Source: Methanoculleus caldifontis (GTDB lineage: Archaea > Halobacteriota > Methanomicrobia > Methanomicrobiales > Methanoculleaceae). Taken from it: DNA of 64,000 nucleotides. Positions 23,748 to 48,361 of the stretch are shown in pieces. A program made the position numbers and the translations under genes. The notes beneath the pieces were generated by a model that was given only the letters and a program-made list of their open reading frames with translations, ran no database searches and was not told the origin of the DNA. Positions within the stretch are counted from its first letter, which is position 1, and the number at the start of each line of letters is the position of its first letter. Location: NCBI RefSeq assembly GCF_032842345.1, contig NZ_WBKO01000002.1:268208-332207 (forward strand). Reading direction: 5' to 3'.

Positions 23748-23779
23748 AGGTCTCCTCGAATAATTATATAGGGTAAAAT

Positions 23780-23788
23780 GAATATAAA
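23780..23788. promoter_or_regulatory. Shared TATA element between PAN copy 2 and MBF1 genes
   Basis: AATATAAAG on the plus strand lies about 21 bases before the MBF1 ATG, indicating a leaderless message. Read in reverse (CTTTATATT) it places PAN2 transcription near 23757, about ten bases before its ATG with GAGGAG between. A second A/T element, TTATATAG (23763-23770), lies too close to the PAN2 start to be its TATA box. Confidence 0.55.
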
Positions 23789-23804
23789 GTTGTTTGCGAG
23801 ACTT

Positions 23805-24296
23805 ATGCAGTGCGAACTATGCGGTGCTTCTATCCAGGGACCGTCGAAGACAATCCAGATCGAAGGTGCAGAACTCTGTGTCTGTGCCCGATGCGCAAAA
23901 CATGGTACAGAAGTCCAGCAACCGCGACGAAAGAGTGCCGCCCAGCAGACGAAGCCGGGAGTCGCCGTCCCGCAGGTCCGGAGGAAGCCGAGGGACGTCT
24001 TTGACCTGATGGAGGGCGAGATCGTCGACGACTACGCCGACAAAATCCGGATCGCCCGCGAAGAGAGAGAATGGTCCACGCTCGACCTCGCCCACGCGAT
24101 CAAGGAGCGTGAGATCCTGGTCAAGAAGATCGAGAAGGGAGACCTCATCCCCGAGGACGACGTCCGGAAGAAACTCGAGAAAGCGCTCGGCATCAGGCTG
24201 ATCGACTCAGGCGACGACAGCACCTCCACCGGCGGGCCGGGACGGGTGACCATGACCGTCGGCGACGTGATCTCCTTCAAGAAAAGCCGGAAGTAA
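23805..24296 (+). CDS. mbf1: Multiprotein bridging factor 1 homologue (MBF1)
   Basis: A 163-residue archaeal MBF1. The N-terminal zinc ribbon has CELCGAS and CARCAKHG. A disordered linker follows, then a Cro/XRE helix-turn-helix ([19 protein letters not shown]...[24 protein letters not shown]). The C-terminal segment [12 protein letters not shown] is conserved in archaeal members. It is thought to bridge TBP and regulators or to act at ribosomes. The ATG at 23805 is chosen because the upstream TATA predicts transcription starting there. Confidence 0.93.
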
Positions 24297-24360
24297 AGTC
24301 CTTCCCATACTTTTCCTGATCCCCTGCCCCGGATTCACGTTCTGAGCGGCAACCCGGCAT

Positions 24361-24370
24361 ACTTTTATAC
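24361..24370 (+). promoter_or_regulatory. Probable TATA box of the aromatic amino-acid operon
   Basis: ACTTTTATAC lies about 28 bases before an ATG at 24394 and would begin a leader of roughly 210 nt ahead of the first aromatic gene. A second candidate, GCTTTTATC at 24425-24433, would give a shorter leader. Confidence 0.45.
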
Positions 24371-24393
24371 AATAACACATAACGGTATACACA

Positions 24394-24441
24394 ATGCGTG
24401 GTGAATGTTTTTTCGCCGGTGACCGCTTTTATCTCGGTTAA
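24394..24441 (+). CDS. Candidate aromatic-rich leader peptide
   Basis: A 15-codon open frame encoding MRGECFFAGDRFYLG, with four aromatic residues (Phe-Phe, Phe, Tyr). It starts where leaderless transcription from the TATA box at 24361 would begin and lies upstream of a Phe/Tyr biosynthetic operon. This is inference only; short open frames arise by chance, and translation-coupled attenuation is not well established in archaea. Confidence 0.22.
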   Translation: MRGECFFAGDRFYLG

Positions 24442-24531
24442 CGGAGTAGCCGCCCTCGCAGACGTAAGTTCACAGATTTTGACCGCCGACATCCGTGACA
24501 GCGGAGCGGCAGCGTTCTATCGCTATTTTAG

Positions 24532-24560
24532 CCAGTTTACCCGGTATTTTACCTGGTTTT
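24532..24560 (+). promoter_or_regulatory. Hairpin with T-tract in the aro operon leader
   Basis: GGTA-TTT-TACC (24543-24553) lies inside an outer CCAG...CTGG pairing and is followed by TTTT (24557-24560). It sits 45 bases before the aroA' ribosome site GGGAGG. It could act as an attenuator or be a chance weak hairpin. The rest of 24297-24601 carries no other recognised feature. Confidence 0.3.
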
Positions 24561-24607
24561 AACATTCCCGGAAGACAGCACCGTCCAAACCCGGGAGGAT
24601 TATGATC

Positions 24608-25399
24608 ATGAGAGGAAAAGAGATTCGTCTGGAACGTATTATGGATCGGAACACCGGCAGGACCATCATCGTGCCGCTCGACCACGGCGTGACGCTCGGC
24701 CCCATCCCGGGCCTGGTCGACGTCGGGAGGACCATCGACCTCGTCGCCGAGGGGGGAGCGAACGCGGTGATCGGCCACGTGGGGCTTGCGCTCCACGGGC
24801 ATAGGGGGCACGGGCGGGATGTGGGCCTGATCATGCACCTCTCGGCGAGCACCAGCATCGGCCCCGACCCGAACGACAAGGTGCTCGTGAACACCGTCAC
24901 GAACGCCCTGAAGATGGGCGCCGACGGCGTCTCGGTGCATATCAACGTCGGGGCCGACTCCGAGGCACGGATGCTCGAAGACCTGGGCAGGGTCGCGGTC
25001 GCGTGCATGGAATGGGGGATGCCGCTCCTCGCGATGATGTACCCGCGGGGCAGGAAGGTCGTCGACGAGCACGACCTCGAGAGCGTCAAACTCTCGGCGC
25101 GGGTGGCGGCGGAACTCGGCGCCGATATCGTCAAGACCGTCTACACGGGCGACGCGGACTCATTCCGTGAGGTGACGCAAGGGTGCCCGGTGCCGGTCGT
25201 GGTCGCGGGAGGCTCGAAGACCGACGAGCGCGCGATCCTCGATCTGGTGGAGGGCGCGATGGAGGGAGGCGCCGCAGGGATATCGATCGGGAGGAACGCC
25301 TTCCAGCACCCGGCTCCCGACCGGCTGATCCGCGCCGCGGCGCTGATCATCCACGAAGGCAGGTCGGCAGAAGAAGCGATGGAAATTTTGAGGACGTGA
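24608..25399 (+). CDS. aroA': 2-amino-3,7-dideoxy-D-threo-hept-6-ulosonate synthase family aldolase (first copy)
   Basis: A 263-residue class I (Schiff-base) aldolase of the DeoC/LacD superfamily. In methanogens such enzymes start the alternative shikimate route, condensing a deoxy-ketohexose phosphate with aspartate semialdehyde. Visible blocks are [52 protein letters not shown] (Schiff-base lysine) and VVVAGGSKT...[11 protein letters not shown]. The start is ATG at 24608, nine bases after GGGAGG; an ATG at 24602 lies too close. A paralogue follows after 4 bp. Confidence 0.9.
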
Positions 25400-25403
25400 G
25401 AAG

Positions 25404-26189
25404 ATGATTGGAAAAGAGATCCGCCTCGAGCGGATAATGGACCGGAACACCGGCCGTGCCGTGATCATTCCGATGGATCACGGATTCACCCTGGGCCAGA
25501 TCGAGGGGCTCCGCGATATGACCGAGACCGTCAACGCGGTGAGCGAGGGCGGGGCGAACGCCATCGTCCTCCACAAGGGGATGGTGAAGGGAGGGCACCG
25601 GAAGCGCGGAAAGGATATCGGCCTCATCGTCCACCTCTCCGCGAGCACCTCGATGAACCCGGACCCGAACGATAAGGTCATCGTCTGCACCGTGGAGGAG
25701 GCGGTCGCGCTCGGCGCGGATGCGGTCTCGATCCACATCAACCTCGGCGCGCCCAACGAATCGCGGATGATCGAATCGGCGGGCGAGGTGGTGCGGGACT
25801 GCAACCGCTGGGGGATGCCGCTCCTGATCATGATCTACCCCCGCGGCAAGGGGATCGACCCCACCTCGCCGCAGGCGATCGGGCACTGCGTCCGGGTGGC
25901 GGAAGAGCTCGGCGCGGACCTGATCAAGACCGTCTACACCGGCGATCCGGAGTCGTTCCGCCGGATCACGGCCGCCTGCTCGGTCCCGGTGATGATCGCC
26001 GGCGGCGAGAAGGGAGGCGATCTCGAGACGCTCGCGACCATCCGCGACGCTATCGGGGCGGGCGCGGCGGGCGTCTGCATGGGCAGGAACGCCTTCCAGC
26101 GCGAAGACCCGGCCCGGTTCATCCAGTCGATCTGCCGGGTGGTGCACGAGGAAGCGAGCCCGGCCGAGGCGCTGGGGACGGAGCGATGA
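25404..26189 (+). CDS. Second ADHS-family class I aldolase (ADHS or DKFP synthase)
   Basis: A 261-residue paralogue of the preceding gene with the same blocks: VIIPMDHGFTLGQIEG, IVHLSASTSMNPDPNDKV, MIYPRGKG, DLIKTVYTGD and CMGRNAFQ. In Methanocaldococcus, MJ0400 is ADH synthase and its homologue MJ1585 makes 6-deoxy-5-ketofructose-1-phosphate (DKFP), the preceding substrate. By inference this tandem pair divides those two steps; which gene does which cannot be read from motifs alone. It overlaps aroB' by 4 bp. Confidence 0.88.
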   Translation: MIGKEIRLERIMDRNTGRAVIIPMDHGFTLGQIEGLRDMTETVNAVSEGGANAIVLHKGMVKGGHRKRGKDIGLIVHLSASTSMNPDPNDKVIVCTVEEAVALGADAVSIHINLGAPNESRMIESAGEVVRDCNRWGMPLLIMIYPRGKGIDPTSPQAIGHCVRVAEELGADLIKTVYTGDPESFRRITAACSVPVMIAGGEKGGDLETLATIRDAIGAGAAGVCMGRNAFQREDPARFIQSICRVVHEEASPAEALGTER

Positions 26190-27172
26190 AACAGTTCTGG
26201 GTCGATATCAGGCCGTGGAGAAAGGACCTCGCGACGACCGCGATCGAGAGCGGCGCGGACGTCCTGGTCGTCGACGATGCCGAACGGGTGCGTGAACTCG
26301 GCCGGGTGACGACCGTCGCGGAGAACGGCGATCTCGTCCCCGGAGAAGACGTCTTCGAGGTCGCGATCGTCGACAAGGCATCCGAGGAAGAGGCGCTCCG
26401 GCTCTCTCGGACCGGCTATGCCGTCGTCCGGACAGAGGACTGGACGGTCATCCCGCTCGAGAACCTCGTCGCGCAATCGGAGAGGATCATCGCCGCGGTC
26501 GCGAACGCAGACGAGGCGGCGGTCGCCCTGACCGTCCTCGAACGCGGGACGGCAGGCATTCTCCTTTCGACCGACGACCCGGCGGAGATCCGGCGGACCG
26601 CAAAGACGGTCGCCGGCGCCGGTGCAGAGGTCCCGCTCGCCACGTTCGAGGTGACCCGGATCGCCCCCGTCGGGATGGGTGACCGGGTCTGCGTCGACAC
26701 CTGCTCGATCCTCACGGACGGTGAGGGGATGCTCGTCGGCAACACCTCCTCGGCGTTCCTGATGGTCCACCCCGAGACCCTGGAGAACCCCTACGTGGCC
26801 CCGCGCCCCTTCCGGGTGAACGCCGGGGCGGTCCACGCCTACATCCTCCTCCCCGGCGGGAAGACGGCCTACCTCGCCGACCTCGCGGCCGGCGATAAGG
26901 TCCTCGTCGCGGAGCATACCGGCGCGACCCACGACGCGGTCGTCGGGAGGGTGAAGATCGAGCGCCGCCCGCTCCTCCTCGTCGAGGCAAAGGCCGGCGA
27001 CGCAACGGTGAGCCTGGTCCTCCAGAACGCCGAGACGATCCGGCTCGTCCGGGAGGACGGCACGGCCGTATCGGTCGCCGCCCTCGCGGTCGGCGACAGA
27101 GTGCTCGGCAGCATCGCGGAGGGCGGCCGGCACTTCGGGATCGCCGTCAAAGAGACGATCCGGGAGAAATGA
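26186..27172 (+). CDS. aroB': 3-dehydroquinate synthase II
   Basis: A 328-residue archaeal-type (AroB') enzyme that oxidatively deaminates and cyclises the ADH product to 3-dehydroquinate with NAD. It is unrelated to bacterial AroB. The family start is MKQFWVDIRPW. Later blocks are GMGDRVCVDTCSILTDGEGMLVG, SSAFLMVHPETLENPYVAPRPFRVNAGAVHAY-like (RPFRVNAGAVHAY) and LLVEAKAG. Its ATG overlaps the end of the second aldolase, and it overlaps tyrA by 4 bp. Confidence 0.95.
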   Translation: MKQFWVDIRPWRKDLATTAIESGADVLVVDDAERVRELGRVTTVAENGDLVPGEDVFEVAIVDKASEEEALRLSRTGYAVVRTEDWTVIPLENLVAQSERIIAAVANADEAAVALTVLERGTAGILLSTDDPAEIRRTAKTVAGAGAEVPLATFEVTRIAPVGMGDRVCVDTCSILTDGEGMLVGNTSSAFLMVHPETLENPYVAPRPFRVNAGAVHAYILLPGGKTAYLADLAAGDKVLVAEHTGATHDAVVGRVKIERRPLLLVEAKAGDATVSLVLQNAETIRLVREDGTAVSVAALAVGDRVLGSIAEGGRHFGIAVKETIREK

Positions 27173-28002
27173 AGAGAATGCTCGCAGGCATCATCGGCGG
27201 CACCGGGCAGATGGGCCGGTTCTTCTCCGGGGTCTTTGAGGCGGCCGGCTGGGAAGTGATCGTCTCGGGGACGAAAACCCCCCTCACCAACCCCGACGTC
27301 GCGGAGATGGCGGACCTCGTCATGGTCTCGGTCCCCATCCGCGCCACCGTCGGGGTGATCCGGGAGATCGCCCCGCTCCTCTCGGAGGAGCAGGTCTTCT
27401 GCGACCTGACGTCACTCAAGGCCGAACCCGTCCGTGCAATGCTCGAATCGCGCGCGGAGGTGATCGGCCTCCACCCGATGTTCGGGCCCGGTGCCGTATC
27501 GCTCCGGGGCCAGACGATCGTCGCGACCCCGGCCCGGTGCAAGCCGGAGACCCTCAAAGGCCTCCTCTCGGTCTTCCGCGACCAGGGAGCGGCGATCACC
27601 CTCTCGACACCCGAAGACCACGATCGGATGATGGCGGTGATCCAGGGGCTGACCCACTTCGGGACGCTCGCGAAGGCGGAAGCCATCCGCCGGACCGGCG
27701 CCGATGTCGGGGAGACCCTCGCGTTCACGAGCCCCGTCTACCGGATCGAGATGGGGTTTGTCGGGCGGCTCCTCGCCCAGAACGCCGGGCTCTACGGCGA
27801 TATCCTGCAGATGAACCCGGCGGTCCCGGAGGTCCTCGCAGCCTTCGAGGAGGCCGTCCGGGCGCTCCGGGAGATCGTGGAGTCCGGGGACGACGAGCGG
27901 TTCCGGGCGTTCTTCGCCGCGAACGCCGGCCATTACGCCTCGTTCCTCCGCACCGCGACGGAAGAGACGGACGATCTCATCAACCACACGGTGGGCCGAT
28001 GA
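27169..28002 (+). CDS. tyrA: Prephenate dehydrogenase
   Basis: A 277-residue TyrA. The NAD-binding motif GIIGGTGQMGRFF is at residues 6-18. LHPMFGPGAVSLRGQ contains the active-site His-Pro-Met-Phe-Gly, and VIQGLTHF is typical. It makes 4-hydroxyphenylpyruvate for tyrosine. No fused chorismate mutase or ACT domain is present. It is translationally coupled on both sides (ATGA overlaps). Confidence 0.93.
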   Translation: MKRMLAGIIGGTGQMGRFFSGVFEAAGWEVIVSGTKTPLTNPDVAEMADLVMVSVPIRATVGVIREIAPLLSEEQVFCDLTSLKAEPVRAMLESRAEVIGLHPMFGPGAVSLRGQTIVATPARCKPETLKGLLSVFRDQGAAITLSTPEDHDRMMAVIQGLTHFGTLAKAEAIRRTGADVGETLAFTSPVYRIEMGFVGRLLAQNAGLYGDILQMNPAVPEVLAAFEEAVRALREIVESGDDERFRAFFAANAGHYASFLRTATEETDDLINHTVGR

Positions 28003-28793
28003 CCGTCCTGACCCTCGGCCCGGCCGGGACGTTCAGCCACGAGCTCGCGGTCAGGCTCTACGGTGACGAGGTCGAACTCCTGCCGACCATCCGCGCCATC
28101 ATCGAGCAGGTGGCCGGCAGCGCGTCCCGCGGGCTCGTCCCGATCGAGAACTCGGAGGCCGGCGGCGTGGGAGAGACGCTCCAGGGGCTCGCGGAGTCCG
28201 GGGTCGTCATCACCGGAGAGGCCTACATGCCCGTCCGGCACCACCTCGCGGCCAGGGGGGAGCCGTCACGCCTCTCGGTCATCTACGCTCACCCGCAGAC
28301 GCACGAGCAGTGCTCCATCTTCCTCGACGGCCTCGGGGTCGAGGTCGTGCACACGAGCAGCAACGCCGCGAGCGCTGTCGCCATGCAGCGCGAAGAGAAC
28401 GCCGGCGCGGTCGTCTCGGAGACGGCGGCAGCGATCTACGGCCTCCCGATAGCTGTTCGGGATATCCAGAACAGGTTGGATAACACCACACGGTTCGTGG
28501 AGATATCCGCCGTCCCCCGCGGGGGTGCAGGTTGCACGAAGTGCAGCATCCTCGTGGACCCACAGACGGACAGGGTCGGACTCCTCGCCGATATCCTCGG
28601 CGTCTTCGCCCGACGCCGGGTTAACCTGACCCGGATCGAGTCGCGGCCGTCCCGGCGGGGGATCGGGAGGTACATCTTCTTCATCGATATCAACGTCTCC
28701 GAAGGCTGGCATGAGGCAAAGGAGGAACTCAAAACGATGACGACCGTCAAAGAACTCGGCTGTTACGCACGGATGGAGGTGCCGGGAATATGA
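27999..28793 (+). CDS. pheA: Prephenate dehydratase
   Basis: A 264-residue enzyme converting prephenate to phenylpyruvate. The start is LTLGPAGTFSHELAVRLYG. The core VPIENSEAGGVGETLQGL and DIQNRLDNTTRFVEIS (the TRF motif) are intact. A C-terminal ACT domain (KCSILVDPQTDRVGLLADILGVF, ESRPSRRGIGRYIFFID) gives phenylalanine feedback. There is no chorismate mutase domain. The ATG overlaps the stop of tyrA. Confidence 0.95.
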   Translation: MTVLTLGPAGTFSHELAVRLYGDEVELLPTIRAIIEQVAGSASRGLVPIENSEAGGVGETLQGLAESGVVITGEAYMPVRHHLAARGEPSRLSVIYAHPQTHEQCSIFLDGLGVEVVHTSSNAASAVAMQREENAGAVVSETAAAIYGLPIAVRDIQNRLDNTTRFVEISAVPRGGAGCTKCSILVDPQTDRVGLLADILGVFARRRVNLTRIESRPSRRGIGRYIFFIDINVSEGWHEAKEELKTMTTVKELGCYARMEVPGI

Positions 28794-30058
28794 TCGTCAG
28801 GGTATCGCAGACAGGTCCGGTCGACGCAACCTTCGAGGCACCGCCCTCGAAGAGTTACACCCACCGGGCCCTGATCGCGGCGGCGCTTGCCTCCGGGAGA
28901 TCGCGGATCGCAGGGCCGCTCCGGGCGGCCGATACGGAACTGACTGCCCGGGGGTTGGAGAGCCTCGGCGTGCCGCTCGAGTGGCTGCCGGGAGAGATCG
29001 CCGTCACCGGGTGCGGCGGCACCTTCCCGGCGGCGGGCGAGGTCGTCATCGACTGCGGAAACTCCGGGACGACCCTCCGGCTCCTCACCTCGGCGGCCCT
29101 CCTCTCCCGGCACCCGGTGGTGCTGACGGGGAACCAGAGGATGCTCGAGCGGCCGGTCGGCCCGCTCGCCGGTGCGCTCCAGGCACTCGGCGGCGAGATC
29201 GCGTTTCCCGGTGCGCCCGGCTATCCGCCCATCCGGGTCTCCGGCAGGCTCCGGGGCGGGAAGGCGGAGATCGACGGGAGCATCAGCAGCCAGTTCGTCT
29301 CGTCCATCCTGATGGCGGCGCCCTACGCTGACGAGGACGTGGAGCTCGCGCTCCCGGCGACCCCGGCCTCGCGGTCCTACCTCGACGTGACCGCGGACGT
29401 GATGCTCCGGTTCGGTGCAAGGCTCAAGCGGCGGGGCTACGACTGGTTCCGGGTGGAGAGCGGCGCAGCCTACCGGGGGCGGGACTACCGGGTCGAGGGC
29501 GACTACTCGTCGGCCTCCTACCTCTTCGCGGTCGCGGCTGTCTGCGGCGGGAAGGTCACGGTCAGGGGCTTGAACCCAACGTCGGTCCAGGGGGACCGCC
29601 GGTTCCTCGACGCCCTCGAGGCGATGGGCTGCGTTGTCACCGCCGGCGACGATGCCGTGACGGTGGAGCGGACAGGGGACCTCCACGGGATCGAGATGGA
29701 TATGTCCTCCTCCCCCGACACCGTCCAGACGCTCGCGGCGGTGGCGGCAGTCGCAACGTCGCCGACGACGATCACCGGGACCGCGCACCTGCAGTACAAG
29801 GAGAGCGACCGCGTCGGGGTGACGGCGGAGACCCTCCGGAGGATGGGTGCGGGGGTCGAGGTCACGGAGGACTCCCTCACGATCACGCCCGCGCCCCTCC
29901 ACGGCGTCGCCGTCGACCCGCACGACGACCACCGGACGGCGATGGCGTTCACCGTCCTCGGCCTCGCGGTCGGGGGGATGGCGATCCGGGACCCCGGATG
30001 CGTGGAGAAGTCCTTCCCCGGTTTCTGGGAAGCGCTTTATGCGGAGGGGCTGCTGTGA
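28790..30058 (+). CDS. aroA: 3-phosphoshikimate 1-carboxyvinyltransferase (EPSP synthase)
   Basis: A 422-residue EPSP synthase. The signatures are APPSKSYTHRALIAAALA, DCGNSGTTLRLLTSAA, DGSISSQFVSSILMAAPYA and the second signature KESDRVGVTAETLRRMG. DPHDDHRTAMAF and GCVEKSFPGFW close the protein. Length and domain symmetry are normal. It overlaps pheA by 4 bp, and its TGA overlaps the GTG of the aroK-aroE fusion. Confidence 0.97.
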   Translation: MIVRVSQTGPVDATFEAPPSKSYTHRALIAAALASGRSRIAGPLRAADTELTARGLESLGVPLEWLPGEIAVTGCGGTFPAAGEVVIDCGNSGTTLRLLTSAALLSRHPVVLTGNQRMLERPVGPLAGALQALGGEIAFPGAPGYPPIRVSGRLRGGKAEIDGSISSQFVSSILMAAPYADEDVELALPATPASRSYLDVTADVMLRFGARLKRRGYDWFRVESGAAYRGRDYRVEGDYSSASYLFAVAAVCGGKVTVRGLNPTSVQGDRRFLDALEAMGCVVTAGDDAVTVERTGDLHGIEMDMSSSPDTVQTLAAVAAVATSPTTITGTAHLQYKESDRVGVTAETLRRMGAGVEVTEDSLTITPAPLHGVAVDPHDDHRTAMAFTVLGLAVGGMAIRDPGCVEKSFPGFWEALYAEGLL

Positions 30059-31503
30059 AGATCGCCCTTATCGGCTTCCGCGGGACCGGGAAGACCTCGG
30101 TCGGGAGGATCCTCGCCGATCGCCTCGGACTGCCGTTCCTCGATACCGATACGATGGTCGAGCGCCGGGCAGGGATGCCGATCCCGGAGATCTTCCGGAA
30201 GAAGGGCGAGGCAGGCTTCCGGGCCCTCGAGCGGGAGACGATCGCGTCGCTCCGGGACGCGGAAGGGGTCATCAGCACCGGCGGGGGGGCGATCACGGAC
30301 CCGGCAAACATCGCGGATCTCCGGCGGCACGGCCGGGTCTTTCTCCTCTCCGCCGCCCCCGGCGTCATCCTCGACCGGATCGCCGGGAGCGACCGGCCCG
30401 GGCTGACCGGTCTCTCGCAAGAGGAGGAAGTGCGGACGCTCCTTGCCCGGCGGAAGGACGCCTACCTCGGTGCGGCCGATGCCTGCATCGATGCCGGCAC
30501 CCGCCCGCCCCGGGAGATCGCAGATATAATCCTCCAGGAGATCAGGGGGGAGGCCGGCATCTCCCCGGACGAGAAACCTTCGCGACTTTCGCGGCTTCGC
30601 GTGAAGCAAGAATATGGGGATGGCGATTCGATCGCACGCGAAGGCGCGAAGACGCGAAAACGTGAACGAGACGCTCTCCTTGAGCGGTTCGGGCTTACGA
30701 CCGTCCGGGATCTGCTCGACCGGGACCCGGACCTCCGGGTCTGCGCCATCGCCGGGAACCCGTGCGCCCACAGCAAGAGCCCGCTCCTCTACAACCGGCT
30801 CTTTGCGCACTTTAAGATGCACTACCACTACACCCGCTTCGAGTGGCCGGACGCAGAGACGATCCTCCGCCTCGCGGCCCTCCTCCCCGTAAAAGGGCTC
30901 TCGGTCACGATCCCGTTCAAGGCCGATGTCATCCCCCACCTCGACGAGGTGGACTCTCACGCGGCGGCGATCGGGGCGGTGAACACCGTCGTCCGGTGCG
31001 GCGGAAGGGCATACGGCCATAACACCGACTGGCTGGGTGTCCGCTCGCCGCTCGCCCACCGGCAGGGCGGAAGGGCGGTCGTCCTCGGCGCCGGGGGTGC
31101 GGCGGCCGCGGCGGTCTATGCCCTCCTCTCGCTCGATATGGACGTGACGGTGCTCGCCCGGAGATCGGACGCGGCGCAGAAACTCGCCGACCGGTTTGGG
31201 TGCCGGTGGGGGGCACTGGAAGACTTTAGAGGGAGCGACGCCGATGTTGTGGTGCATACGACCCCGGTCGGGATGGAGCCCGATACCCGGAGCCTGCTTG
31301 CCCCCTGCGACCTCGAGCGGAAGACAACCGTCTTCGACCTCGTCTACACGCCGCCGGAGACGCCCCTCATCAGGGCGGCAAAGGAGGCCGGGTGCGAGAC
31401 GATACCCGGCACGGAGATGTTCGTACATCAGGCGGCGGAGCAGTTCCGGCTGATCACCGGGATCGCGGTGACGCCTGCGCTGATTCGGGAGATGCTCGCA
31501 TGA
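30055..31503 (+). CDS. aroKE: Fused shikimate kinase (bacterial type) - shikimate dehydrogenase
   Basis: A 482-residue bifunctional protein. Residues 1-170 are a P-loop shikimate kinase: [20 protein letters not shown] (P-loop 7-14), [11 protein letters not shown] and [10 protein letters not shown]. Most methanogens instead use a GHMP-type kinase, so transfer from bacteria is likely. Residues about 226-482 are shikimate dehydrogenase: [26 protein letters not shown] (catalytic Lys), [10 protein letters not shown] (catalytic Asp), [17 protein letters not shown]. The linker, about residues 175-205, is Arg/Lys/Ser-rich and coded entirely by a palindromic repeat copy. The GTG start has GGAGGGG five bases upstream. 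Confidence 0.93.
30577..30667. repeat. In-frame palindromic repeat inside the aroK-aroE coding sequence (copy R2)
   Basis: The left arm is CTTCGCGACTTTCGCGGCTT plus CGCGTGAAG (30578-30606), and the inverted right arm is CACGCGAAGGCGCGAAGACG plus CGAAAACG (30635-30662). They flank a 26-base spacer. The left arm matches the intergenic arm at 44268-44296 at 26 of 29 positions. It adds about 30 codons without a stop and joins the kinase and dehydrogenase domains. Confidence 0.8.
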
Positions 31504-32504
31504 ATACGTTCGGGAGAAACTTCAGGTCCACCACGTTCGGAGAGAGCCACGGCAAGGCGGTGGGCGTGGTCGTCGACGGCTGCCCGCCGGGGGTCGCCCT
31601 CGCGGAGGCGGATATTCAGCCCTACCTCGACCGGAGGCGGCCGGGAAAGAGCCCGCTCGAGTCCGGGAGGCAGGAAGCCGACCGGGTGGAGATCCTCTCG
31701 GGGACATTCGAGGGGAAGACGACCGGCGCCCCGATCGCGCTCGTCGTCTCGAATCGGGACGTCCGGTCGGGGGACTACGACGCTCTCCGGGACGTCTTCC
31801 GGCCGGGGCACGCGGACTACACCTGGCAGGCGAAGTACGGGCTCCGCGACCACCGGGGCGGCGGGCGGAGTTCTGGCCGGGAGACCCTTGCGCGGGTCGC
31901 GGCAGGCGCCGTCGCAATTCGCTGCCTTGCGCCTTACGGCATCAGTATCCGGGGGAAGGTCGTCGAGATCCACGGCGCGACGGAGCCGGCAGCGATGGAG
32001 GAGGAAATCATCGCCGCCCGCGATGCCGGCGACTCCGTGGGCGGGATCGTCGAGGTGAGGGCCGTCGGATGCCCGGCAGGCCTCGGTGACCCGGTCTTCG
32101 GGAAACTCGATGCCGCGATCGCCGGGGCGATGATGGGGATCGGCGCGGTGAAGGGCGTCGAGATCGGCGAGGGCTTCGCTGCCGCCCGGCTCTTCGGGAG
32201 CGAGATGAACGATCCTATCGGCGAGGCCGGGTTTGCAAGCAACCATGCGGGCGGCGTCCTCGGCGGGATCAGCACCGGCCAGGAGATCGTCGTCCGGCTT
32301 GCCGTCAAGCCGACGCCCTCGATACGCCGGGTCCAGCAGACCATCGATATCGCCGGAGAGGAGCAGGAGATCTCGGTCGGGGGGAGGCACGACCCTTGCA
32401 TCGCGCCGCGGATTGTCCCGGTCGCGGAGTGCATGCTCGCGCTTGTGATCATGGATGCGATGCTCGAGCAGGCGAAGTACCGGGGGCTGGGTGCGACGGG
32501 CTGA
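31500..32504 (+). CDS. aroC: Chorismate synthase
   Basis: A 334-residue FMN-dependent enzyme that completes chorismate. The family signatures are [19 protein letters not shown] near the N-terminus, [19 protein letters not shown]-like [18 protein letters not shown], and [16 protein letters not shown] near the C-terminus. Its ATG overlaps the stop of the aroKE fusion. It is the last gene of the aromatic operon; a repeat element follows immediately and may help end transcription. Confidence 0.97.
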
Positions 32505-47585: not shown

Positions 47586-47954
47586 TTACGGCAAAAGCTT
47601 CTCAAGTGTGAATGTGGCGTTTGCTCCGGGCGGAACGTATGTGCCGATATAGTGAATTTCGATAGGAATACACGGCGATTCTGGCACACCATCATTCTCC
47701 GGAATGACCCCCCGGAAGCCTACCATCATGCCATCTACCCGATAGGCTTCGTCCAGATTAACAGGAGCGTAACAGGTTCCGTTTTCCGCCTGTATGATAT
47801 ATACTCCACTGTCGTTTTCGACGTGTACGACTGTTCCGATGACGGTCTCTTCATCGATTTTTCCTGTATCAGTGCAACCGCTTGAGAGCAATGTTAAAAT
47901 GAGGATGAATGTAACTGATATAACTGAAAGGTGGGGTAATGTTCTATGTACCAT
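47586..47954 (-). CDS. Hypothetical lipoprotein
   Basis: A 122-residue protein. The signal peptide MVHRTLPHLSVISVTFILIL leads into the lipobox LLSSGC, so the mature protein would be lipid-anchored. The mature part is small and beta-rich (VIGTVVHVENDSGVYIIQ). No family is recognised; it loosely resembles OB-fold exported proteins. Codon use is less GC-biased than in the core genes. The start is ATG at 47954: AATTTAAGTAA about 25 bases upstream predicts a leaderless message. Confidence 0.7.
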   Translation of the reverse strand: MVHRTLPHLSVISVTFILILTLLSSGCTDTGKIDEETVIGTVVHVENDSGVYIIQAENGTCYAPVNLDEAYRVDGMMVGFRGVIPENDGVPESPCIPIEIHYIGTYVPPGANATFTLEKLLP

Positions 47955-48361
47955 TATGTATACACTTACTTCTTCATTACTTAAATTCTCGGATATATAG
48001 TTCTTGGCGCTACTCTTTGGAACCTTGAAGGTCCTCAACCTGCCGACAGCATCTGCTGCCTTTGACGATGCTTACTCCCATATACACGATGGATAAACGG
48101 AGGGTGTGGCATCACCTCAGGTGGCTCCTTGTACTGTTTGATCCGTTTTTCAAGACAGAATTAGAAGCGTGCTTCATGAACACGATCTGTTCATGCCCAA
48201 CCCATGACTGCTGAGGGTCCTCAAAATCCAAAAGAGTAGCGCTAAGAGTTATGATTTATAGTTTCATCATAATTCACTAACTATATGTTCTCTAAAGTTC
48301 CCACTGACCTGAGAAAGACTTGTTCAAAAAAGAAATCGGTTTTCTGTCCAACAGTTCATTA
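47955..48361. other. A/T-rich intergenic region
   Basis: About 400 bases beyond the lipoprotein promoter. No intact gene. On the minus strand 48050-48180 there is a short coding-like stretch (EKRIKQYKEPPEVMPH, then PPFIHRVYG) interrupted by stops; it may be the relic of an unidentified gene. The rest is A/T-rich with no clear structure. Confidence 0.3.

Follow-up and report, generated by a model that had tools for sequence, protein, structure and literature searches.

A conserved aromatic-codon leader with two overlapping frames precedes the aromatic gene cluster of Methanomicrobiales and may control it through the translating ribosome

The bacterial leader peptides pheL and trpL, rich in Phe and Trp, respectively, act in ribosome-mediated transcription attenuation. 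In the SecM-secA system, a ribosome held near the end of the upstream ORF opens a hairpin over the Shine-Dalgarno sequence of the next gene; here secretion is sensed via the nascent SecM chain. The programmed +1 frameshift of bacterial RF2 takes place at CUU U. In the ermC leader, telithromycin shifts ribosomes into another frame, in which they read on into the spacer, whereby the mRNA is unfolded, according to passages of a 2016 review (PMC5009743). The same passages call frameshifting in pheL incidental, know of no hungry-codon frameshifting that yields trans-frame products with a novel function in starvation, and mention +1 frameshifting in archaea solely for a virus. For archaeal recoding, part of another review gives one case, a -1 shift (PMC8211752). 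We found no description of a ribosome-mediated amino-acid attenuator in archaea in the open-licence PMC literature, and such absence is not proof.

The element described here lies in a 64,000-nucleotide stretch of Methanoculleus caldifontis DNA, hereafter the window, in front of a cluster of aromatic biosynthesis genes (Table 1). Among the matches listed, the ADTHS closest to that of the window is from M. sediminis S3Fa (98%). A sequence-only reading had suggested a possible aromatic attenuator, with a layout like the bacterial ones, at this place. Comparison across the order lends strong support to the part of that proposal which concerns a leader with aromatic codons before the operon. Its terminator anatomy is not supported, as the main aromatic cluster lies in the +1 frame, at the stop codon, and the hairpin lies at the Shine-Dalgarno sequence. 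Our preferred reading, to which we assign a probability of roughly one half, is that a translated leader responsive to aromatic amino acids attenuates this archaeal operon, that it acts mainly on translation of the first gene, and that in most lineages a +1 shift serves as the gate.

Like pheL and trpL, the element has a short, probably translated ORF with codons for products of the pathway before the operon and an RNA hairpin after it. It differs from them in its archaeal host, its leaderless start, its two overlapping frames and the terminal position of the aromatic cluster within the ORF; moreover, the hairpin of the window is found at the Shine-Dalgarno sequence, and there is no U-run terminator in the window. 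Because a terminator was looked for in the window and not found, the leader does not belong to the bacterial terminator class; it would work in the manner of leader-peptide attenuation. As with ermC, a ribosome on the leader ORF would free a sequestered start site. However, the trigger is an antibiotic in ermC and presumably uncharged aromatic tRNA here, where selection acts on both frames throughout the order. The proposed stall near the end of the leader, which would open a hairpin at the Shine-Dalgarno sequence, recalls SecM-secA; unlike in SecM, no conserved arrest peptide was seen outside the aromatic residues. As in RF2, a YUU codon in the P site followed by U would permit a +1 slip, but the A-site codon is a sense codon for Phe or Tyr and not UGA.

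Table 1. Features of the leader region and the downstream cluster (window coordinates)
Feature	Position	Strand	Basis
TATA box TTTTATAC	24363..24370	+	sequence; position kept in relatives
Frame 1, leaderless 15-codon ORF MRGECFFAGDRFYLG, then stop (ATG 24394-24396, stop 24439-24441)	24394..24441	+	conserved in 107 of 137 loci
Frame 2 (+1 of frame 1), 53-codon ORF from the conserved [AG]TG position to the aromatic tail; start overlaps frame 1 (GTG at 24401, stop 24560-24562)	24401..24562	+	
Site A, TTT-TTC in frame 1 (YUU-UUY), proposed +1 shift site, Phe codon in A site	24409..24414	+	
Site B, TTT-TAT in frame 1 (YUU-UAY), proposed +1 shift site, Tyr codon in A site	24427..24432	+	
Aromatic tail FYRYFSQFTRYFTWF, then stop; 9 of 15 codons Phe, Tyr or Trp; C-terminal end of frame 2	24515..24559	+	
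Hairpin TTCCCGG / CCGGGAG, 2 nt past the frame-2 stop; 3' arm overlaps the Shine-Dalgarno sequence	24565..24597	+	covariation in sister clades
Shine-Dalgarno sequence GGGAGG of ADTHS	24593..24598	+	sequence
ADTHS (2-amino-3,7-dideoxy-D-threo-hept-6-ulosonate synthase), first gene	24608..25399	+	TIGR01949, 346 bits, above cut-off
Remainder of the aromatic gene cluster	25404..32504	+	profile matches

The cluster downstream of the leader represents the archaeal aromatic pathway (precursors of Phe, Tyr and Trp). The first ADTHS gene is followed by a second ADTHS, DHQ synthase II, prephenate dehydrogenase, a prephenate dehydratase-like protein, EPSP synthase, a fusion of a shikimate kinase-like domain with AroE, and chorismate synthase; the matches to prephenate dehydratase and shikimate kinase do not reach the NCBIfam cut-offs. 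The ADTHS start at ATG 24608, before RGK, is common to the relatives, and the ATG at 24602 is a possible alternative. The shikimate kinase-like domain that is fused to shikimate dehydrogenase (30058-31503; 137.5 bits, cut-off 204) is of the bacterial type. Shikimate kinases of archaea usually belong to another family.

On the other side, the gene directly 5' of the leader (23778-24296) codes for the archaeal multiprotein bridging factor aMBF1 (TIGR00270, 172.5 bits). It was found upstream of the leader in all 36 loci of family f1, in 20 of 41 loci of f6 (mostly short stretches) and in 3 of 17 extra loci; it was not seen at this place in any of the 8 f2, 14 f3, 8 f4 and 14 f5 loci. Mbf1 is conserved in eukaryotes and archaea and prevents frameshifting at CGA-CGA pairs in yeast, as stated in passages of PMC6301793.

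For the comparison, upstream regions of ADTHS were gathered from the genus, the order, family f3 and extra genera. An ADTHS match was present in 216 of 232 genomes of the order, and the upstream DNA was examined for 137 loci. This count excludes L143, a duplicate of L110; the first genus set was used without L002, L003, L016 and L030, and L036 took the place of L016. The dual-frame arrangement, which places the tail in the +1 frame of an ATG at leaderless distance from the TATA box, was found in 107 of the 137 sampled Methanomicrobiales loci and in all six families. Each of these 107 has frame 1 with its ATG, a frame 2 that is open for 35-84 codons, and 4-13 aromatic residues in the last 16 codons. 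L061, where the tail caller picked another ORF, is included here and left out of the positional and folding counts. The remaining 30 loci comprise 27 with a single frame, G191, which by eye is a dual variant outside the pattern, and G132 (at a contig end) and G164, which could be assigned to neither class. Searched as a DNA pattern with at most two mismatches, the dual-frame cassette occurred once each in 138 of 231 genomes, and the reversed pattern gave no match. Outside the order, where the gene start could be located in 18 of 20 fetched loci (one ADTHS copy per genome), no recognisable leader was seen by eye in any of the 18.

The conservation of the small frame, on which the first proposal had been staked beforehand, thus holds in 107 of 137 loci, and the 15-codon frame itself was found as it had been drawn. 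The same is true of the TATA box at leaderless distance: in 95 of the 105 loci that have frame 1, the start of the best TATA 8-mer lies between -33 and -30 relative to the ATG, and for this reason a leaderless start is well supported. The leader that had been recognised is real, but it was only the first half of the element; the second frame and its aromatic tail had been missed. Judged from this comparison, it is very likely that a conserved, translated aromatic leader lies upstream of the aromatic operon.

The tails of frame 2 outdo dinucleotide shuffles with p<0.05 in 102 of 108 loci and with p<0.01 in 76. Their aromatic residues are concentrated in about the last nine codons, with at least one in the final three codons in 103 of 107 loci, and in all 32 Methanoculleus loci the very last codon is one for Phe or Tyr. 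The ORF is thereby rich in codons for the amino acids of the pathway, as are leader ORFs of the pheL/trpL type, and control by the levels of aromatic amino acids would fit this composition. Methanoculleus tails prefer TTT to TTC (86:26) and TAT to TAC (71:3), opposite to what seven window genes show (7:45 and 6:35). Such a preference would suit slow wobble decoding; alternatively, it could reflect a need for U-rich RNA. Two loci from different families, L147 (f3 g13) and L065 (f5 g21), have a near-identical tail end (TTCTGGTTTAGACAGTAG) and near-identical hairpin arms (CTGCACCAGA...TGGTGCAG).

The overlap of the two frames was studied in 60 distinct cores from 105 loci, which were compared along a minimum spanning tree and not a phylogeny. 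Changes that are nonsynonymous in both frames were depleted (26 versus 41.7±4.4 expected), and changes synonymous in frame 1 (39 versus 27.6±4.0) or, with both frames scored, in frame 2 (32 versus 22.6±3.7) were enriched; since the loci are related and a spanning tree was used, p values are overstated. The depletion is located between sites A and B (16 versus 30.6±3.7). At the level of sequence, this indicates that the overlap is evolving as dual-coding DNA. In all 105 loci, site A reads YTT-TTY and site B reads YTT-TAY. In part, the dual coding imposes this invariance, which hence is by itself no proof of slippage. Overlapping ORFs with the downstream frame in +1 were present in all 107 dual loci; together with the conserved slip-prone sites, this is the arrangement of programmed +1 frameshifting.

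In 27 loci from four of the six families (f2, f3, f5 and f6), a single frame runs from the ATG at leaderless distance to the tail; the overlap sequence is lost, and the ORF and its tail are kept. The script identified 24 of them, and L066, L195 and L209 were recognised by eye. In L065, L148, L149 and L201 the in-frame ATG of the script differs from that read by eye, and in L209 the script took another ORF. In three of these loci, all aligned by eye, the point of fusion could be placed: at site A in G046 (MRGECLPPLAHG...) and G108 (MCGECVLPVMA...), and at site B, with CTT-ATC, in G047 (MRGECLSAPGCLIAER...); not all other single-frame loci could be aligned. The three joins match those predicted for +1 shifting in the dual-frame relatives. 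These natural fusions show that ATG and tail form one translation unit in the single-frame lineages, and the same may hold for the dual ones. Since all six families include loci of the dual form, this form would be the simpler ancestral state, a view reached from its distribution and not from a tree.

Entry into frame 2 could also take place without any shift. In that case there would be two separate ORFs, frame 2 would start at the conserved [AG]TG codon (24401) in competition with frame 1, and the tail ORF alone would be the sensor. All 105 cores have either GTG or ATG here, with A and G alternating among the Methanoregula (g34) genomes, and E. coli is reported to initiate ambiguously at AUGUG/GUGUG (PMC9841429). 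However, the GTG follows the 5' ATG by only 7 nt, which leaves no space for a Shine-Dalgarno sequence, and the 27 single-frame loci join the tail to the leaderless-distance ATG and not to the [AG]TG codon. G096 (L198), the sole dual-frame locus seen with GTA at this position, keeps its tail nevertheless, albeit with an in-frame GTG one codon upstream. The segment before site A carries 23 changes, of which 7 are synonymous in frame 1 (6.6 expected), 4 in frame 2 (5.3 expected) and 10 nonsynonymous in both (7.9 expected); it shows no constraint in either frame and does not help in the choice between a shift and a second start. We consider two separate ORFs rather doubtful and lean, with some reserve, towards a +1 frameshift as the route into frame 2.

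The other half of the preferred reading concerns the hairpin behind the tail. The predicted fold has its first paired base 0-5 nt after the tail stop in 101 of 102 loci. The hairpin sequence varies between families and the pairing is kept, with double changes in 4 of 7 pairs in one f6 set, 2 of 9 in f4 and 1 of 9 in a Methanoregula-type set (alignments of 11, 6 and 10 sequences, respectively, selected from their clades). Compared with shuffles that preserve the Shine-Dalgarno sequence, 71 related loci gave a combined p of 3.7e-13 for energy and 6.6e-5 for Shine-Dalgarno pairing; taken singly, 22 of 102 loci for energy and 28 of 102 for pairing were below p<0.05. In the window itself, the hairpin at 24565-24597 taken alone does not stand out (z -0.88), nor does the folding of the whole leader surpass that of its shuffles (z -0.80).

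The families differ in how far the hairpin takes up the Shine-Dalgarno sequence. Pairing was raised over shuffles in Methanoculleus (f1g1; 0.80 versus 0.44) and Methanofollis (f4; 0.83 versus 0.41), somewhat raised in f2 (0.59 versus 0.45) and f5 (0.66 versus 0.56), and not raised in f6 (0.47 versus 0.46) and the other f1 loci (0.44 versus 0.45). No Shine-Dalgarno sequence was found for L060, L063, L064, L066 and L067, and the structures of L061 and L062 were seen in part. The pairing in Methanoculleus and Methanofollis points to translation control there; in f6 and the other f1 loci, the hairpin would abut the Shine-Dalgarno sequence or act otherwise.

Predicted access to the Shine-Dalgarno sequence depends on where the ribosome is placed. 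Averaged over 102 loci it rises from 0.27 with the ribosome 12-18 codons back to 0.60 on the last codon, and in the 32 Methanoculleus loci from 0.25 at three codons back to 0.66; on average, the climb comes with the ribosome on the final one or two codons. In f5 it scarcely moves (0.26 to 0.32). At the window's own locus it is 0.07 without a ribosome and 0.16-0.21 at all ribosome positions but one (0.44). We regard control by the position of the ribosome on the hairpin behind the stop codon as somewhat more likely than not.

Alternatively, the leader could act by classical transcription attenuation, the leader ribosome choosing between a terminator and read-through, possibly with FttA-dependent termination of untranslated RNA. 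The layout with an aromatic leader is like that of pheL and trpL, and some f5 and f3 genomes have the tail stop 100-230 nt before the gene, with a long hairpin and then T-rich sequence in between. This distance suits transcription control better, and in these genomes the output step may differ. Archaeal polarity is called likely due to FttA in passages of PMC12548453. Against this, a terminator scan of 24300-24700 found no terminator-like site. A terminator near 24560 is not supported: the hairpin there (24530-24560) is weak (-5.9 kcal/mol, z -1.33), and the TTTT that was taken for its tail consists of Phe codons of frame 2. This hairpin sits in a longer tail that is absent from most other Methanoculleus loci; a similar one occurs in L025. 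In 88 of 107 dual loci, 35-60 nt separate the tail stop from the gene (measured to its second codon), and the 3' arm pairs with the Shine-Dalgarno region in Methanoculleus and Methanofollis, both of which speak against transcription attenuation. We regard it as fairly unlikely.

Two further explanations are very improbable. The small frames could be by-products of a conserved DNA or RNA element, an operator or a structured RNA, which would explain the strong nucleotide-level conservation of the overlap; but changes between sites A and B obey the codon rules of both frames, the tail frame is retained while the spacer varies freely, single-frame lineages have lost the overlap sequence and retained ORF and tail, and 24200-24800 has no Rfam match at E up to 1 (riboswitches, T-boxes and other families). 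A functional microprotein, with no regulatory role, would agree with a long open frame conserved across the order, but within the genus the spacer before the tail is free of amino-acid constraint (90 synonymous changes versus 85.0±7.3 expected), as expected of a leader and not of a working protein, the length varies from 35 to 84 codons, and the aromatic codons adjoin the hairpin.

Under the preferred reading, a translated leader read out mainly at the start of the first gene, the following course of events is conceivable. Transcription would start on the ATG at 24394 or a few bases from it at most, and the ribosome would initiate on the leaderless RNA, as the TATA distance suggests; that frame 1 is then translated is indicated by the comparative evidence. 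With charged Phe- and Tyr-tRNA plentiful, frame 1 would be completed and the ribosomes would leave. The hairpin behind the tail could then fold and cover or abut the Shine-Dalgarno sequence of ADTHS, which would keep expression low. When charged tRNA is scarce, the ribosome would pause with the Phe codon of site A or the Tyr codon of site B in its A site. The P-site tRNA on YUU could then slip +1 onto UUU, as dual coding and natural fusions suggest, so that translation would continue in frame 2 into the aromatic tail. In the tail, a shortage of charged Phe-, Tyr- or Trp-tRNA would slow the ribosome; a pause on the last aromatic codons would place it over the 5' arm, and judging from geometry and folding the hairpin would stay open and ADTHS would be translated. 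In the single-frame lineages the tail would be reached directly from the ATG.

A more far-reaching version, which we put forward tentatively, is that the starvation-triggered +1 frameshift is itself the sensor. Hungry-codon slip sites for Phe and Tyr in a leaderless ORF would lead into a co-selected frame 2 whose tail opens the start site of the operon; this device would be ancestral to the order, and several lineages would have hard-wired the shift by loss of a base.

Searches for further leaders of this kind were limited in extent. TrpE was matched in 178 genomes, and in the 30 loci inspected a Trp-rich leader before trpE was not consistently present; this result carries limited weight, as the script gave a partial or another ORF for at least L123 and L131 and TrpE may not be the first gene of its operon. 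In the own genome, some 0.79 Mb of contig C1 plus the window, out of 2.6 Mb, were scanned in any frame, and the three hits were the leader studied here and two others, Trp-rich and His-rich, without further support. A leaderless scan of the same DNA gave three other hits, none of them tied to an operon. The window also contains a 12-codon ATG frame, MYHYVYTYFFIT (47946-47984), in an AT-rich stretch with a TATA-like box at leaderless distance; a link to an operon was not seen.

The leader resembles a starvation sensor of a type that is known in bacteria and in archaea apparently undescribed. If the preferred reading is correct, archaea would sense the levels of charged tRNA through a ribosome on a leaderless ORF, and two overlapping frames kept under lasting selection would provide a rare example from nature of regulated +1 frameshifting.
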